DNA of 64,000 nt, from assembly GCF_029278565.1 (NCBI RefSeq), contig NZ_CP119559.1:868001-932000 (forward strand). The letters run 5' to 3'. The stretch's first letter is position 1, and each line of letters begins with the position of its first letter. Below, in pieces: positions 8,078-54,992 of this stretch. The DNA is from Haloarcula halophila. GTDB lineage: Archaea > Halobacteriota > Halobacteria > Halobacteriales > Haloarculaceae. The translations under genes and the position numbers were made by a program. Under the pieces are notes generated by a model. The model searched no databases, was not told where the DNA came from, and saw only the letters and a program-made list of their open reading frames with translations.

Positions 8078-9757
8078 TCAGCGGCCGGCTCCAGTGTCCA
8101 GGGCCGTTCCACAGCCCGGACAGTAGCAGACTTCCGCACTGTTTTCGACGCGGCGTCCACAACTCGGACAGTCGATCTCGGCCGGTCCGTTCGTCGCTGC
8201 CGACGGTTCGGACTCGCTCGTCCCGGGAGCCGCCAGGCTCTCGTCGGGGCTACTCCCCGTGTCGGCGATGATCGTCTCGGCGTTCACTGGCGTCGCCGAC
8301 TGATCGAACTCGGAGACGGCAGCGTACTCGTGAGCCGCCTCGAACCTCGGCACGACAGCAGTAGCTGCCCTGACGGAGTCGTCGGCTCCGTTCTCCGTGC
8401 CGGTGTCGGACACTGGGATCTCGGCACGCTCGTCGCGGTCTACGGGACCGCTAGCGGTCGGATCGGAGTCGAACTCCGGTAGCACGGCATTGCTGTCCGA
8501 CTGTTCGTCGGTCTGGTTGCCACTGTTGGTCGAATCGGTGTCGGCCGCTGGCTCGAACCGCGGGATGGTATCGCCTGCGTCGCTCCTCCGGTGTGTGCCG
8601 TCACCGGATCGACGATACGCCTCGGTGGTCTCGATTATCGGCAGGACGCGGTTGCGTGACGTTCTTGCGGCCTCAGCACCGCCGGATCGCCCGTCCGTCT
8701 CGGTCGGCTGCTCACCGGGGTCGTCGGCAGACGGTACGGGTTCGGTGGGCGTGAACACTCTGGTCCCGCTGTGCTCGTCGTCCCCATCGGCTGTCTCGGA
8801 GGGGGTGGTGGTCGGACCGGTACCGTCAGCGTCGCCTGCCGAATCCGGCGTCGGATCGGATTCGGGGTCAGTCACGGCGGTTCCGTCCGCGTCACCGGTG
8901 GCCTCGGTGGCAGTATCGGCGTTCGAGACCACACGCGTGGCCGAGGACGCCGCCGACGGCTGGGCCGACTCCGGAACGCGCTGTCCGGGCCGTCGCTTGG
9001 GTGCCGAGGGGAGCCCCCGACGCTTCGCGATCGAGGCCACAGTCGTCTGTGCGAGGAGATAACACACGGAGAGAGCGATCGGGACGAACAGCGTCCCGCG
9101 GAGGAGGAGCGCCGACTCGATCCCGATCAGTGCCGTCCACGTCTGGACCGCATCGGCGACACCGGCCGTCGCGACCCGGCTCGCGAGGCGTGGATCGAGG
9201 CCGGTGACGGTCGATAGTCGGACCAGGAGTCCGACGACGACCGAGACGGCAGAGACGGCGATCATTCCGAGGAGGGTCCGCGTGAGCGAGAGCGTGTACA
9301 CGCGGTGTCCGAACGCGACCGTCCGAACGAGAAAGTGGACCGTGACGACGAGCAATGCGGCGACCAACGGAAGCGACCAGCCGGAGACGACCAGCGCTGC
9401 CAGACAGCCGACGAGCGCCAGGCTCGGAACGACCAGCAACACGCCGGGTTCGGCCATCCGATAGGAGTTCGCGAGGTTGTCGTGGCGGTTGAACAGTTGC
9501 CGCTGGACGAGCGCGATGGCAGCCAGCGACGGGAGGACGATCCACGCCAGCAGCGCGAACAGTTCCAGCCCGCGGACGGGTGTCCCGGCGACCGTCGTCG
9601 CTACTGCCCGTTTCAGCGCCGGTGTCCCGGCCTCCAGAACGAGCCCGCTCGCGACGACCCAGGTAGCGTAGACCAGTGGACCACAGAGGCCGAGTGCCAG
9701 CACTCGCCACTCTTCGGCGAGCAAGGCGACGGATTCACGCAACTCACCCCCGGACAT
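8078..9757 (-). CDS. Multi-pass membrane protein with long acidic linker and C-terminal zinc ribbon
   Basis: 559 residues. Roughly residues 15-240 contain about six hydrophobic segments. A low-complexity Asp/Ser/Thr/Glu region of about 280 residues follows. The C-terminus is a zinc ribbon with two Cys pairs, CPSCG and CYCPGCG. No family name is recognised. It is last of five genes with phosphorylation-type domains, 26 bases after the FHA/zinc-ribbon gene, so it is likely the membrane component of that system. The disordered linker could hold phosphorylation sites read by the FHA proteins; that is inference. Confidence 0.75.
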   Translation of the reverse strand: MSGGELRESVALLAEEWRVLALGLCGPLVYATWVVASGLVLEAGTPALKRAVATTVAGTPVRGLELFALLAWIVLPSLAAIALVQRQLFNRHDNLANSYRMAEPGVLLVVPSLALVGCLAALVVSGWSLPLVAALLVVTVHFLVRTVAFGHRVYTLSLTRTLLGMIAVSAVSVVVGLLVRLSTVTGLDPRLASRVATAGVADAVQTWTALIGIESALLLRGTLFVPIALSVCYLLAQTTVASIAKRRGLPSAPKRRPGQRVPESAQPSAASSATRVVSNADTATEATGDADGTAVTDPESDPTPDSAGDADGTGPTTTPSETADGDDEHSGTRVFTPTEPVPSADDPGEQPTETDGRSGGAEAARTSRNRVLPIIETTEAYRRSGDGTHRRSDAGDTIPRFEPAADTDSTNSGNQTDEQSDSNAVLPEFDSDPTASGPVDRDERAEIPVSDTGTENGADDSVRAATAVVPRFEAAHEYAAVSEFDQSATPVNAETIIADTGSSPDESLAAPGTSESEPSAATNGPAEIDCPSCGRRVENSAEVCYCPGCGTALDTGAGR

Positions 9758-9783
9758 TGGATTGGTGTACTGGAACCGGATGC

Positions 9784-10479
9784 TTAATCTGTGGGGTTCT
9801 CCGGATGGCGAACCCTCGCGGTGACGACCTCCGAGAGGCCCAGTTCGTCGCCCGGTGCCACCGGCTCGCGGTCGCCCCGCTCCAGGAGACGGTCGTTGAG
9901 GCGCGTCGGGTTGTCACCCAGGTCGACGAGGTAGAACCCGTCGGCTTCCTTTCGAAACCGGACATGCTCCCGATGGACTCGCACGGCCTCGTCGTCCGAC
10001 CGTCCGGCGTCGAGCATCGCAGCACGGATGTCGCGGCCGACACAGTCACCGTCGGTAACGGCGACCTGTCGGCCACAGACAGCTAGGCGGAGTGACTCCG
10101 GCGTATCGTTCCGGTCGCTGTCGAGTCGGCTGCCACACTCGATACAGAAGTTCGCGTCGTCGTGGGTCGCCCCACAGTCCGGACACGTCAGAGACGGGTC
10201 CTCAGCAGCCGGTTGGGCTGCTCCGTCGGATTCGTCGACGGTCGACTCGACCGACTCGCCAGCGCTGTCGGCGTCCGCTTGTGCCGCGGCCTGTTCGAGG
10301 AGTCCGAGCCGGTCCGGGTCACCGGTCGGCGAGTAGACGACCGCTCCCCCGGAACGCTCGTCTCCGGTGTCGGACTGCCACTCGCCGCATCCGGGGTTCG
10401 TACACCACCCACCGGCTGTCGTCGGATCGAACCGGACCCCACAGATCGGACACTCGACTGTCTCCCCCGTACCCGGCAT
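9784..10479 (-). CDS. FHA-domain protein with two zinc ribbons
   Basis: 231 residues. The N-terminal zinc finger uses C10, C13, C26 and C31. An acidic linker precedes a second zinc ribbon (CPDCGATH and CIECGSRL). A C-terminal FHA domain follows with VGRDIR, VHREHVRF (Arg and His of the phosphothreonine-binding face) and a DLGDNPTRLND turn. FHA domains bind phosphothreonine, here plausibly made by the kinase encoded three genes upstream in the same operon (11632-12864). Gaps are 73 bases to the PP2C gene and 26 to the membrane gene. Confidence 0.85.
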   Translation of the reverse strand: MPGTGETVECPICGVRFDPTTAGGWCTNPGCGEWQSDTGDERSGGAVVYSPTGDPDRLGLLEQAAAQADADSAGESVESTVDESDGAAQPAAEDPSLTCPDCGATHDDANFCIECGSRLDSDRNDTPESLRLAVCGRQVAVTDGDCVGRDIRAAMLDAGRSDDEAVRVHREHVRFRKEADGFYLVDLGDNPTRLNDRLLERGDREPVAPGDELGLSEVVTARVRHPENPTD

Positions 10480-10552
10480 TGGTTCTCGTCTCGCGTGTTC
10501 TCAGTACAGCAAGAAAACAGTTACTCACGGACGAGTCCGCCCCGGTTAGGGG

Positions 10553-11629
10553 TCACTCGTCGGACAACAGGGCCGTGTCTCGGTCGAGCGGTCGACGGCT
10601 CGGATCGATGTCCCGAACCGGCACCGAGTCCTCGGCCGGCGTCTCCGGGAGTCCGTCGTCGCCGAACAGCAGCACCGAGAGATTGTCTTTCCCACCTCGT
10701 TCGTTTGCCATCTCGATGAACGTCTCCCCGGCCGCCGGGAGCGAATCCGCCGACAGGACCACGTCACGGAGATTTTCGTCCGTCACCGCCTTATCACGGA
10801 TGCGTTCGGCGGCGGCCTCGGACTTCCCGGAATCGACGTAGTGACGGTACAGCGCCGGCGCGTCGGTCTGTGCGTCCACGAGTCCGTCGCTGGTGACCAA
10901 CACGGTGTCCTCCGCGTAGAGATCCACCGTCCGCGTGTCGACCTCGACGGTCGCCGTCGCGGCGTCCCCCCCGCCCGCTCCACCGAGTGCGCGGGTGATC
11001 TCGTTTCCCCGCGGGTGGACCTGCGATTCGAGTTCGTCGATCTCGCCCGCCTCAGCCCAGCGCTGGACCAGCGCGTGGTCTTTCGTCAGCCGGGCGATCC
11101 GCCCTGTCGCCTCGTTGACGACGTAGGTTCGACTGTCGCCGACCCATCCCAGATGGAGCCGCCCGTCTAGACAGATCCCCGCGACTGCGGTTGTATACGA
11201 GCGAGTCCCCGCGGACCCGACGTACCGCAGGATGTCGCGGTGGGTCTCGACCACGGCGTCGGTTATCGCCGATCGCAGGCTCACGGCGGTCGACTCCTCG
11301 GGTAGAACCCCGTCGTCGATCTCGATGTCGAACCGCTCCGGCCGTCCGCGGGCCGCACGGATCGCGACCGGAGCCAGTCGTTCCGCGATCCCGGTCGTCG
11401 CGAGATACGAGGCGACGTCACCGGCGTCGTGGCCCCCAGCGCCGTCGGCGAGGACGAACACGCCGACCGAGCGCGTCGACGACGGTGTCGGCTCGTCGGT
11501 CCCCCGTTCGCTCCCGATCCCGTGCCCCTCCCGATGCCCGTCCTCGAAGACCGTCATCGAGAGGCTGTCCTCGTTGATTCCGTCCCCCCGTTTGGCGTCG
11601 CCAGTGTCGTAGTGTGTGCTGTATCGCAT
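10553..11629 (-). CDS. PP2C-family protein serine/threonine phosphatase
   Basis: 358 residues with the metal-site motifs of PPM/PP2C phosphatases: N19-E20-D21, VLADGAGGHDAG, WVGDSRTYV, VTSDGLVDA and ERGGKDNLSVLLFG. It dephosphorylates Ser/Thr phosphates using two metal ions in the cytoplasm. There is no membrane segment, so it resembles the stand-alone PppA/Stp type. It starts two bases after the kinase stop, so the pair is almost certainly co-translated and antagonistic. Confidence 0.93.
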   Translation of the reverse strand: MRYSTHYDTGDAKRGDGINEDSLSMTVFEDGHREGHGIGSERGTDEPTPSSTRSVGVFVLADGAGGHDAGDVASYLATTGIAERLAPVAIRAARGRPERFDIEIDDGVLPEESTAVSLRSAITDAVVETHRDILRYVGSAGTRSYTTAVAGICLDGRLHLGWVGDSRTYVVNEATGRIARLTKDHALVQRWAEAGEIDELESQVHPRGNEITRALGGAGGGDAATATVEVDTRTVDLYAEDTVLVTSDGLVDAQTDAPALYRHYVDSGKSEAAAERIRDKAVTDENLRDVVLSADSLPAAGETFIEMANERGGKDNLSVLLFGDDGLPETPAEDSVPVRDIDPSRRPLDRDTALLSDE

Positions 11630-11631
11630 GG

Positions 11632-12864
11632 TTACTCCGTATGGAACTCGAAGGTGACGCCGTAGGTGGGATGGACCAGGGCGACGAGGTCGCCCTCGTG
11701 GATCGGGACGGACTCGGGTGGCACGTGTCCGTGTCTGTCTGTCGGGTCCTCACCGACCTCCCGGAGCCGTTCCCGTCCCGATTCACACAGCACCCGTTGC
11801 CAGCCACCGCCCTGCTGGACGAACGTTCCGTTGAGGCTTCGGTCCTGGAGATACCAGTCGTCGCCCTCGATATCGAACTGGATCTGTACCGAAGAGATAT
11901 ACTCGTCTTTCGGGTCCTCGATCGTGATCGACGCGGGCGGCCCCGTGGCTCCGGCCCGGCCGATGGTATCGCCCGGACCGACGGTGAACCGCTTGTTCTG
12001 CTGGCGATAGACGACCGATGCCGTCTCCGGCGGCGTGGGATCTCTTGCCTCCAGAACGGCTTTCAGTACCGTCGCGTTGCTGTAGCGGTCGCGATGATCG
12101 GTCTGGGTGGCACGCTCGACGATCTCCGCGAGGTACGCCTCACAGTCGGCCCCGAACTGCTGTGGATTGATGCCGTCTTTCTCCGGAACGCTCCCTTTCA
12201 ACAGAAAGAGCAGCGTCTTTCCCACCGAATAGACGTCCGACCAGGGTCCCTGTCGAACGTCAGTCCGGGTGGCGTCGGCGACCTCGCGTGGCTTGTACGG
12301 CCCGAGGATCGTCGTCCCGTTGTCCCCCGAGACCGGATCGCTCGTCGGATCGAACCCCGTCGCAGTGTTGAAATCGATCAGCGTCGGCGTGATGTCCGGC
12401 GTCAACAGGACGTTCTCCGGTTTCAGGTCCCGGTAGACGATCTCGTTCTCGTGGAGAAAGCCCATCGCGTCACAGAGGTCGATCCCGATCTGGCGGACCT
12501 GTTCGGTATCCTCGATCGGGCCGTGCCGGTCGATGACCTCGTTGAGATCCAGCCCGTCCTCGACGAGTTGCGCCACGAGAAAGGTGACCTCCCGGTCCTC
12601 GACACAGTCATAGAGGTCCATAACGTTCTCGTGGCCGCCCGCGGCGCTGACACGCCGGAGCGACTCGACTTCCTTCTGGAAGTACTCGTCGATGAGTTCC
12701 GGATCGTTCTTCGAGTCGGTGTAGTTCGGGTGTTTCAACACGACCGACTCGTTCGTCTCGCCGTCGACGGCCCGGTGGACGCGGGCGAATCCCCCCTGTC
12801 CGAGGAACTCGGTCAGTCTGTACCGGTCGGCGACGACGTCACCGGTCTGTGGTTCCCAGGGCAT
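11632..12864 (-). CDS. Serine/threonine protein kinase with C-terminal FHA domain
   Basis: 410 residues. The kinase domain (about 14-275) has a glycine loop (LGQGGFARVH), ATP-site Lys44 and catalytic loop YRDLKPEN with Asp147. The magnesium-loop motif reads D164-F165-N166 rather than DFG. The C-terminal FHA domain (about 290-408) has GR 302-303, paired Ser 324-325 and N345-G346-T347; the usual FHA His is Gln. No transmembrane segment. The fused FHA suggests it binds its own or a partner's phosphothreonine. It lies 34 bases after the VWA gene and 2 before the phosphatase. Catalytic residues suggest an active kinase, but the DFN change needs testing. Confidence 0.92.
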   Translation of the reverse strand: MPWEPQTGDVVADRYRLTEFLGQGGFARVHRAVDGETNESVVLKHPNYTDSKNDPELIDEYFQKEVESLRRVSAAGGHENVMDLYDCVEDREVTFLVAQLVEDGLDLNEVIDRHGPIEDTEQVRQIGIDLCDAMGFLHENEIVYRDLKPENVLLTPDITPTLIDFNTATGFDPTSDPVSGDNGTTILGPYKPREVADATRTDVRQGPWSDVYSVGKTLLFLLKGSVPEKDGINPQQFGADCEAYLAEIVERATQTDHRDRYSNATVLKAVLEARDPTPPETASVVYRQQNKRFTVGPGDTIGRAGATGPPASITIEDPKDEYISSVQIQFDIEGDDWYLQDRSLNGTFVQQGGGWQRVLCESGRERLREVGEDPTDRHGHVPPESVPIHEGDLVALVHPTYGVTFEFHTE

Positions 12865-12898
12865 CAGTCACTCCTCACGCCACGTGCTACCGAGGCAC

Positions 12899-14083
12899 TC
12901 ACTCCTGGACACCCTCGTCCGTGACGACTCTGGTCGCCTCGCTCTGTTCGGCTCGCCCGCCCTCGCTCACGATCTGTGTCTGTCGTTTGGCCGCCTCGAC
13001 CGCCTCGGTCCCGTCGCCGTGGATCTCGGTCATCTTCTCGATCTCGGTCTGTGCTGCCGCCACGTTGCCACGCCCCAGTTCCGTCCTGACGACCGTCTCC
13101 CGGTGGTCGATGTCGACCGTCTCGACGTGTTCGGCCAGCAGATCGTTGTCGTCGGTGTACTCGACGGTGATCTCGCCGCTAGCCGTCTCCCCACGGGCAG
13201 TCAGTGTCACGTCCGCCAGGACGACGGTTCCGGTCGTCGCCCGCTCCGGGACCCGTAGCTTCAGGACTACACACTGGGTCTCCCGGTCGAGCAGGTCCGG
13301 CAGGCGGATCGTCGCCTGGTTCCGTTCCCACTCCGGGTCGACAGTCTGAGCCTGGGGAATCGCCCGGTAGACCTCGCTGATGTCCACGCCGTTGTCGACG
13401 ACCAACTCCAACTCCGCGTCCGGCGCGACGACCGAGCCCGCGTCCTCGACGGCCTCGCCGAAGAACGTCTCGATGTCGCCGGGCCGTGCCAAGTGGGTCC
13501 ACTCGCCCCGAGCAGCCGTCCCGAGGCTCCTGATCGTCGCTTCCCGGTACTCCGTCCCGATACCGGCGGCTTCGATACGGATGCCCTCACGGTCGATCTC
13601 CCGGGCTAGTTCGGCGAAGTCGTCGGCGTCCTTGCGGTTGTCCTTCCCGTCCGAGAGCAACAGGATCCGTCGGACGGTGTCCTCGTCACTCGGGAGTCCG
13701 TCCAGACTGGCGTTCGCTTCGAGCAGTCCACTGTACATGTCCGTTCCACCCCCAGCACTGATCTCCGTAACGAGGTCGACTGCCGCCGTCCGATCGATCG
13801 TCCCCCAGCGGGTGGCTTCGAGTACCGTCTCGACCTCGTTGTCGAACGCGACGATCGAGAGGTAGTCGGTCGGTTCCAGGAGACCGAAGATCCACTCGGC
13901 TCCCTCACGTGCCTGTTCGATCAACTCCCCCGCCATCGATCCGCTCGCGTCGAGACAGAGCGCGATCTGTCGAGTCGGTGGTCGTTCCTGTCTCCCCGGC
14001 TCCACCTCGATTTCGGCCGTGACCGTCGTCCCACCCCGCGGAACGTACGGCCGGTTCACGTCCGTCAGGACGTTCGCAGTCAT
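12899..14083 (-). CDS. VWA-domain protein
   Basis: 394 residues from ATG 14083; the frame continues upstream but the extension has no family character. The von Willebrand A domain has an intact metal-ion-dependent adhesion site: D45-A-S47-G-S49, Thr in GGGTDMYSG, and Asp in LLLSDGKDN. C-terminal beta-rich and helical parts follow. It is first in the five-gene cluster, so expression probably starts upstream of 14083. VWA proteins often scaffold complexes; VWA, PP2C and kinase together recall the bacterial TerY-P triad. Confidence 0.88.
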   Translation of the reverse strand: MTANVLTDVNRPYVPRGGTTVTAEIEVEPGRQERPPTRQIALCLDASGSMAGELIEQAREGAEWIFGLLEPTDYLSIVAFDNEVETVLEATRWGTIDRTAAVDLVTEISAGGGTDMYSGLLEANASLDGLPSDEDTVRRILLLSDGKDNRKDADDFAELAREIDREGIRIEAAGIGTEYREATIRSLGTAARGEWTHLARPGDIETFFGEAVEDAGSVVAPDAELELVVDNGVDISEVYRAIPQAQTVDPEWERNQATIRLPDLLDRETQCVVLKLRVPERATTGTVVLADVTLTARGETASGEITVEYTDDNDLLAEHVETVDIDHRETVVRTELGRGNVAAAQTEIEKMTEIHGDGTEAVEAAKRQTQIVSEGGRAEQSEATRVVTDEGVQE

Positions 14084-14260
14084 ACACCTATCTGCTCCGA
14101 CACGCCAGATATAGCTTTTCCCCTGGCAGGGAGAGTGTCGTTCGACGATAATTACCAGGAGTTGCGTGCGAATGATAGCCGGCTGTGGTCGGTGGTCCGA
14201 TGCCGGAGCTGCTGCTGGAACGGATCGACGAGTTCGGGACACTGACCGGTTCGGAGGACC

Positions 14261-54581: not shown

Positions 54582-54992
54582 CTACTCGTCGACCACGACG
54601 ACCTTGACCTGCTGGACGCCGGTGACCGATCGGAGTTGGTTCGCCAGTGCGGTGATATCACTGGCCGCACCCTCGACGACGAGCGTCTCCATGCAGGTGT
54701 CGTGTGAGAGGTGGATATGCTGGACGGACACGATCGTCTCGGCCATCTCGTGTTGGATCGTCTGGAGTTCGTCGGCGATACCGGCCGCGTGGTGGTCGTG
54801 GACGACGACGATCGTTCCGTGGTGGTGGTGGTCACCGTCGGACTCCCACTCGTAGGCCCCGAAGAAGTCCCGTAGCGAGTCACGGACGGCGGCCGATCGA
54901 CTGGGGTACTCCCAGTCGTCGACGATCCCGTCGAGTCGGTCGACCATCGACGACGGCAGCGTGAGACTGATCCGGTCGAACTCGTCGCTCAT
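54582..54992 (-). CDS. nikR: Nickel-responsive regulator NikR
   Basis: 136 residues from ATG 54992 (MSDEFDRISL). N-terminal ribbon-helix-helix (ISLTLPSSMVDRLDGIV, SRSAAVRDSLRDF) and C-terminal ACT-like nickel domain. All four high-affinity ligands are present: H81, H92, H94 and C100 (QHIHLSHDTC), plus an extra HHHH run at 55-58. NikR represses nickel uptake when nickel is abundant. Divergent from cbiM with 102 bases between starts, where a dyad operator candidate lies. Confidence 0.96.
   Translation of the reverse strand: MSDEFDRISLTLPSSMVDRLDGIVDDWEYPSRSAAVRDSLRDFFGAYEWESDGDHHHHGTIVVVHDHHAAGIADELQTIQHEMAETIVSVQHIHLSHDTCMETLVVEGAASDITALANQLRSVTGVQQVKVVVVDE

Follow-up and report, generated by a model that had tools for sequence, protein, structure and literature searches.

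In Sulfolobus, threonines of ArnB that lie in its C-terminal helical region are phosphorylated by the kinase ArnC and then bound by the forkhead-associated (FHA) domain of ArnA, while the zinc finger of ArnA binds unphosphorylated ArnB (PMC6509490, PMC12852372). Expression of the archaellum is controlled by ArnAB (PMC6509490), and structurally related products have been mentioned for Halorubrum (PMC12852372). Two bacterial systems combine some of the same parts. The TerY-P triad, present in Ter and CoCoNuT-associated systems, places a VWA protein, a PP2C phosphatase and a Ser/Thr kinase side by side, and PpkA, PppA and Fha of type VI secretion follow a similar logic of kinase, phosphatase and FHA reader. 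Here we analyze a set of five genes in a stretch of 64,000 nucleotides from Haloarcula halophila (contig NZ_CP119559.1, positions 868,001 to 932,000; referred to below as the window) that encode an ArnB-like VWA protein, a kinase fused to an FHA domain, a PP2C phosphatase, an FHA/zinc-ribbon protein and a membrane protein. The nearest known system is the ArnA/ArnB module of Sulfolobus, and not TerY-P or type VI secretion. On balance, we favor the view that the five genes constitute a haloarchaeal, membrane-tethered relative of the ArnA/ArnB switch, in which the kinase, the FHA domains and the PP2C phosphatase would act through a threonine in the membrane protein's linker.

The evidence for the relationship with ArnB comes from the VWA protein. 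Its AlphaFold2 model, which has a predicted local distance difference test (pLDDT) score of 87, shows a vWA domain that interrupts a beta-sandwich; helices make up the region towards the C-terminus, and the chain ends in a flexible tail. This layout, including the C-terminal threonines, is that of ArnB, and the model superposes on ArnB (8s05_A) over its whole length (Z 32.1, root-mean-square deviation 3.4, 352 residues aligned); Z scores of 27.8 and 34.0 were obtained for vWA2 (5a8j) and the bacterial vWA protein 4fx5, respectively. When a profile of the VWA family was compared with the sequences of solved structures, ArnB (8s05) was the top match (2.6e-12) and vWA2 (5a8j) the third. The first-pass annotation had looked to TerY-P and to PpkA/PppA/Fha, and ArnA/ArnB was absent from its comparators; fold and best PDB sequence match now put the latter in their place. 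Although the fold agrees with ArnB, Pfam does not list an ArnB_C domain for this protein at an E-value of 0.1. The metal-ion-dependent adhesion site (MIDAS), described earlier as intact, is indeed so: D45-x-S47-x-S49, T114 and D145 are unchanged in 20 homologues. The tail (residues 377-394) has pLDDT values below 50, and a C-terminal threonine motif is kept at 60 of 62 loci. Searches of the same phylum outside the haloarchaea for full-length homologues returned only partial vWA-domain matches. Further haloarchaea (loci L067-L075) carry more distant ArnB-like VWA proteins, and the vicinity of these gave neither a kinase nor a PP2C or an FHA protein of the five-gene type.

The remaining proteins extend the likeness. 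As in the Arn network, with its kinases ArnC and ArnD, the set combines an FHA and zinc-finger protein with a Hanks-type kinase and a phosphatase. The FHA/zinc-ribbon protein has the arrangement of ArnA, with the correction that it contains two zinc ribbons (C10-C31 and C99-C115) and not the single one that had been described; the FHA assignment itself stands. Pfam is silent on the FHA domain of the window copy but calls it in homologues (1.7e-9 at L015 and 1.3e-6 at L038), and the GR...H..N positions are conserved. Used as a profile against the PDB, the alignment of this family gave zinc-ribbon matches only. There are also differences from the Sulfolobus network. Firstly, the haloarchaeal phosphatase is a PP2C, whereas the Arn network employs a PP2A. 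Secondly, the haloarchaeal kinase is fused to an FHA domain, unlike ArnC with its OB/TPR architecture. Thirdly, the haloarchaeal genes are clustered and include one for a zinc-ribbon protein with multiple transmembrane helices. Because phosphatase type, kinase architecture and membrane component differ, we regard the set as a relative of ArnA/ArnB and not as ArnAB itself; what is new is the dedicated kinase-FHA and PP2C pair, and the six-helix membrane protein with its acidic linker and zinc ribbon. The shared fold and partner architecture, together with the role of ArnAB in archaellum expression, could also be taken to mean that the set is a functional orthologue of ArnA/ArnB that regulates motility, with the membrane protein as sensor. 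We consider this unlikely, since no archaellum genes were recognized next to it at the inspected loci, most of the sampled haloarchaea lack the set, and the phosphatase is not that of the Arn network.

The two enzymes carry the residues expected of them. In the kinase, whose nearest solved relatives are StkP and PknB, K44, E65, D146, N151 and D164 are invariant in the aligned homologues, as are D21, D62-G63, D248 and D315 in the PP2C. The C-terminal tail of the PP2C also carries a short motif, [DEQA]T.[ILVMG], that is present in all 58 scorable tails. A VWA protein, a PP2C and a kinase next to each other recall the TerY-P triad, and one could therefore regard the set as a haloarchaeal stress or defence triad of that kind with the FHA and membrane proteins as accessories; at loci L013 and L027 these three genes indeed stand alone at the main locus. 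We rate this explanation as very improbable. TerY-P kinases carry a zinc ribbon or an OB fold at the C-terminus (PMC11090510), whereas the C-terminus of the haloarchaeal kinase is an FHA domain. In addition, TerY-P is defined without an FHA reader or a membrane anchor, its VWA protein is of a different type from this one, which is ArnB-like over its whole length, neither ter genes nor a restriction system were present among the adjoining proteins scanned, and every one of the 24 genomes sampled from the window's genus carries the set, unlike a sporadic defence cassette. Membership of the PpkA/PppA/Fha family was also rejected: the FHA proteins score 20 bits, against a cut-off of 120 bits for TagH, and no type VI genes were seen adjoining the set. 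Haloarchaeal FHA proteins with kinase and phosphatase genes are also known from ESCRT loci (Halo_FHA, PMC10936438), but there the FHA domain forms a fusion with a CdvA-like domain, next to Vps4/ESCRT-III, neither of which was recognized at the five-gene set. In the open-access literature searched, we found no prior description of the set.

That the five genes belong together is supported by their distribution. In the window they all lie on the minus strand, at the positions first proposed, and are separated, from the VWA gene to the membrane gene, by gaps of 34, 2, 73 and 26 bases (Table 1). A search of named genomes, with the genes at the loci called by a simple codon-bias caller made for this analysis, yielded 21 loci in haloarchaea at which a relative of the kinase is encoded, and nearly all of these show the order VWA, kinase, PP2C, FHA/zinc ribbon and membrane protein, which is shared by Haloarcula, Halosimplex and related genera. 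Since order and content recur across genera, the set is more than a chance arrangement. At the level of the class, the kinase was found in 52 of 391 genomes (E-value below 1e-50) and the full-length VWA protein in the identical 52 (E-value around 1e-100 or lower). The membrane protein of the type found in the window (type 1; a second subtype is treated below) is present in 35 genomes, which are exactly those whose kinase is of type 1, and is absent from the remaining 356. Moreover, parts that have moved away are retained in five genomes. In Salinibaculum sp. KK48 (L013) and G199 the VWA-kinase-PP2C triad is alone at its locus and the FHA and membrane genes form a pair at another place on that contig, at a distance of about 70 kb in G199; in G114, G041 and G059 the membrane gene is about 200 kb from the other four. 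At L015, the FHA-membrane pair is about 4 kb off and on the opposite strand. Linkage alone is thus an insufficient explanation for the co-occurrence, because the parts are retained when unlinked, and in function they hold together as two modules. Because the five parts stay together even where their genes have moved apart, they are probably the components of a single signalling switch anchored at the membrane. The first-pass annotation had proposed a self-contained set of writer (kinase), eraser (PP2C), FHA readers and VWA protein, acting on a membrane complex; Pfam called these domain families in the window or in homologues, and the strict co-occurrence, unlinked copies and membrane protein included, supports the existence of such a set, with action on a membrane complex as a prediction. 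A lack of co-occurrence, which had been named as grounds for dropping the proposal, was not what the genomes showed. Clustering of the neighbourhoods for a further constant partner gene gave local synteny only.

The membrane protein provides the most concrete candidate for a phosphorylation site. Its N-terminal part (residues 1-246) is predicted from the AlphaFold2 model and hydropathy to form about six transmembrane helices with a positive-inside charge distribution, and the linker that follows can be placed in the cytoplasm because the loops between the helices are positively charged. When the model was compared with solved structures, no fold matched at an E-value below 0.1. As noted earlier, the protein has a long acidic linker with a zinc ribbon at its end: about 265 residues rich in Asp, Glu, Ser and Thr are followed by CxxC...CxxC at the C-terminus. 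The linkers of homologues cannot be aligned, yet the motif T[RKQ][VI][FY] is present in all 44 non-identical linkers (33 of type 1 and 11 of type 2), against about 0.07 expected on shuffling, as well as in all eight relocated homologues. Its threonine is the most constant position (52/52). In other proteins of the same loci the motif occurs at 0.055 per 1000 residues. These counts come from related and hence non-independent homologues, and it is the contrast with the unalignable remainder of the linker that constitutes the argument. A second copy, DDT[AS]VF, occurs in many Haloarcula; two copies are present in 18 of the 33 type-1 linkers, and the window copy lacks the second. The window linker is also about twice as long as those of its relatives and contains repeats of the type VLPxF, IPRFEP and VVPRFEA that are absent from the other linkers. 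A search of the organism's own genome with the pattern TR[VI][FY][ST]P gave no further substrate among the three other matches that read TRVFT, TRVFS or TRIFR, which were rejected because they did not fit the frame or the strand of the coding sequence; the remainder have other residues.

The linker motif has a counterpart in bacteria. In type 2 it reads DTRIFVDDF, which resembles ETTSVFRADF, the phosphorylated site of GarA bound by its FHA domain, as checked in PDB 2kfu (Rv1827 pThr22). The kinase PknB phosphorylates T22 of GarA (PMC2784874). In the pathways of GarA and OdhI with PknB and PknG, a phospho-acceptor of the form T-x-V-F-x-x-D-F is read by an FHA domain; the haloarchaeal set has a PknB-like kinase and a matching motif, for which reading by an FHA domain is a prediction. 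In GarA, motif and FHA domain reside in one small enzyme-regulating protein, whereas in the haloarchaeal set it is the membrane protein that bears the motif, and other proteins bear the FHA domains. On the other hand, a short, hydrophobic and conserved T-R-V-F in a disordered linker might simply be an unphosphorylated docking strand for the VWA protein or the phosphatase, with the substrates of the kinase and the PP2C elsewhere. Such a role seems to us improbable given that it is the threonine that is most constant, that V/I at +2 and F at +3 agree with the proven FHA-bound site GarA T22, and that the set has two FHA-bearing proteins, or three or four in type 2. The earlier idea of a threonine switch on a membrane complex has thereby gained a concrete candidate site, T332; its phosphorylation is a prediction.

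Taken together, a switch of the ArnA/ArnB kind could operate as follows. The kinase would phosphorylate threonines in T-x-[VI]-[FYV]-like motifs, with T332 of the linker as the candidate substrate, and probably also in the C-terminal tails of the PP2C and the ArnB-like VWA protein. The FHA domains of the kinase and the ArnA-like protein would bind these phosphothreonines, so that VWA protein, FHA protein and kinase may assemble at the membrane protein. The zinc ribbons may add a phosphorylation-independent contact to the VWA protein, as the zinc finger of ArnA does with ArnB. The PP2C would strip the phosphates and disassemble the complex, so that the VWA and FHA proteins would be recruited to, and released from, the membrane protein. 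The likely input is the membrane domain or a bound ligand. Phosphorylation, binding and the direction of signalling are predictions.

Several observations weigh against this reading. The FHA domain of the type-1 FHA/zinc-ribbon protein has HxxH and NPT instead of the usual SxxH and NGT, and its phosphothreonine specificity may differ because of this replacement. Sequence matches of this protein to ArnA chains in the PDB are weak (E-values of 0.23 and 0.44). Every aligned type-1 kinase has DFN in place of the usual DFG, and the FHA domain of the kinase carries Q327 where a histidine is usual; we treat DFN and Q327 as caveats and not as signs of decay. The FHA and membrane genes can be separated from the triad, and the five genes are therefore not one obligate operon. 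In addition, the linker motif could act unphosphorylated, phosphorylation and binding in the haloarchaeal members are predictions, and no type-2 membrane protein is recognizable in five outlying genomes whose kinase is type-2-like (G229, G234, G285, G112 and G174). The solved ArnAB complex is described in its title as an archaeal ortholog of the Sec23/24 core motif. In a different arrangement, the zinc ribbon of the membrane protein might dock on the beta-sandwich of the VWA protein and form a split, membrane-recruited core of this type, with linker phosphorylation selecting between zinc-ribbon and FHA docking; we offer this as a speculation with little chance of being right.

The second subtype (type 2) occurs in other families of the order and in two genomes of the same family, both of which carry type 1 as well. 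In type 2, the membrane protein gene is on the opposite strand and is followed by genes for the FHA/zinc-ribbon protein, the VWA protein, the kinase-FHA and a PP2C-FHA and, often, a second kinase-FHA; in the g40 genomes the membrane gene is downstream. The FHA/zinc-ribbon proteins of the two subtypes are homologous (hhalign probability 100, E-value 2e-46), and so are their membrane domains (probability 99.0, E-value 8e-18). The type-2 PP2C (L034, L038, L032 and other loci) has gained a C-terminal FHA domain of its own, and in the second kinase-FHA that follows it the HRD motif is altered, to HLD in L034 and L038, so that three FHA enzymes are present in one type-2 operon. Two genomes, G138 (L025, L024) and G282 (L052, L051), contain both subtypes at separate loci, with the linker motifs TRVFTP and TRIYTP. 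These paralogous switches with different motifs would offer a natural test of the insulation between them.

Upstream of the VWA gene lies a TATA-box-like sequence, GAAAAGCTATATC, which is a possible leaderless promoter of the five-gene set, as judged from its letters. The proteins adjoining the set in the window, scanned with Pfam, are a halocyanin, a DUF3179 protein, a MerT-like protein and an esterase. In several genera (L014, L015, L087 and L088), acetyl-CoA synthetase-like and GNAT genes adjoin the FHA-membrane pair, which probably reflects ancestral synteny. In many Haloarcula loci a divergent gene for a NikR-like regulator lies just upstream of the VWA gene (L003 8203-8631 and equivalents); the window has none there. 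Elsewhere in the window, at 54582-54992, a ribbon-helix-helix gene lies beside cobalt/nickel transport-like and urease-like genes.

Table 1. Features of the five-gene set and their positions in the window.
Feature	Position	Strand	Basis
VWA gene, ArnB-like	12899..14083	-	Pfam VWA 5.3e-12; AlphaFold2 model; ArnB 8s05 match
VWA MIDAS DxSxS, residues 45-49; other ligands T114, D145	13937..13951	-	Invariant in 20 homologues, both subtypes
VWA tail motif ATRVV, T384 codon, candidate phospho-acceptor	12932..12934	-	A-T-x-[IV] in 43/43 type-1 tails
Kinase-FHA gene: Hanks-type Ser/Thr kinase (residues 15-250) and C-terminal FHA	11632..12864	-	Pfam Pkinase 1.7e-30, FHA 6e-7
Kinase FHA domain	11812..11967	-	R303, S324, N345 invariant
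PP2C phosphatase gene	10553..11629	-	Pfam PP2C 1.8e-7; homologue alignment
PP2C C-terminal tail RDTALLSDE, T352 codon, candidate phospho-acceptor	10574..10576	-	T352 invariant in 14 aligned homologues
FHA/zinc-ribbon gene, two zinc ribbons, ArnA-like arrangement	9784..10479	-	Alignments
Zinc ribbon 1 (C10, C13, C26, C31), best-conserved region outside FHA	10387..10452	-	Alignment
Zinc ribbon 2 (C99, C102, C112, C115)	10135..10185	-	Alignment; Pfam Zn_ribbon_3 1.8e-5, under curated score cut-off
FHA domain, residues ~130-226 (GR149, H169-x-x-H172, N190)	9802..10092	-	Alignment; Pfam in homologues
Membrane protein gene: ~six transmembrane helices, disordered linker, C-terminal zinc ribbon	8078..9757	-	AlphaFold2 model, hydropathy, charge
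Disordered acidic/Ser/Thr linker, residues 274-521	8195..8938	-	pLDDT mostly below 50
Linker motif T332-R-V-F-T-P, candidate phospho-Thr/FHA docking site	8747..8764	-	Motif conservation
C-terminal zinc ribbon C530, C533, C546, C549	8111..8170	-	Unchanged in 14 type-1 homologues; type 2 has equivalent cysteines
TATA-box-like GAAAAGCTATATC, ~24 bases before VWA start	14108..14120	-	Sequence only

Few archaeal Ser/Thr signalling systems are known in detail, the Arn network of Sulfolobus being the chief one. The set described here is a compact combination of writer, eraser and reader that is related to ArnAB, has a membrane anchor with a predicted phosphorylation site and is present in genetically tractable haloarchaea, and it makes an archaeal phosphothreonine pathway directly testable. 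If the Sec23/24-like docking were true, it would mean that archaea have a phosphorylation-controlled, coat-like membrane assembly. More generally, our results suggest that the logic of ArnA and ArnB is older, or more mobile, than the control of motility in Thermoproteota.

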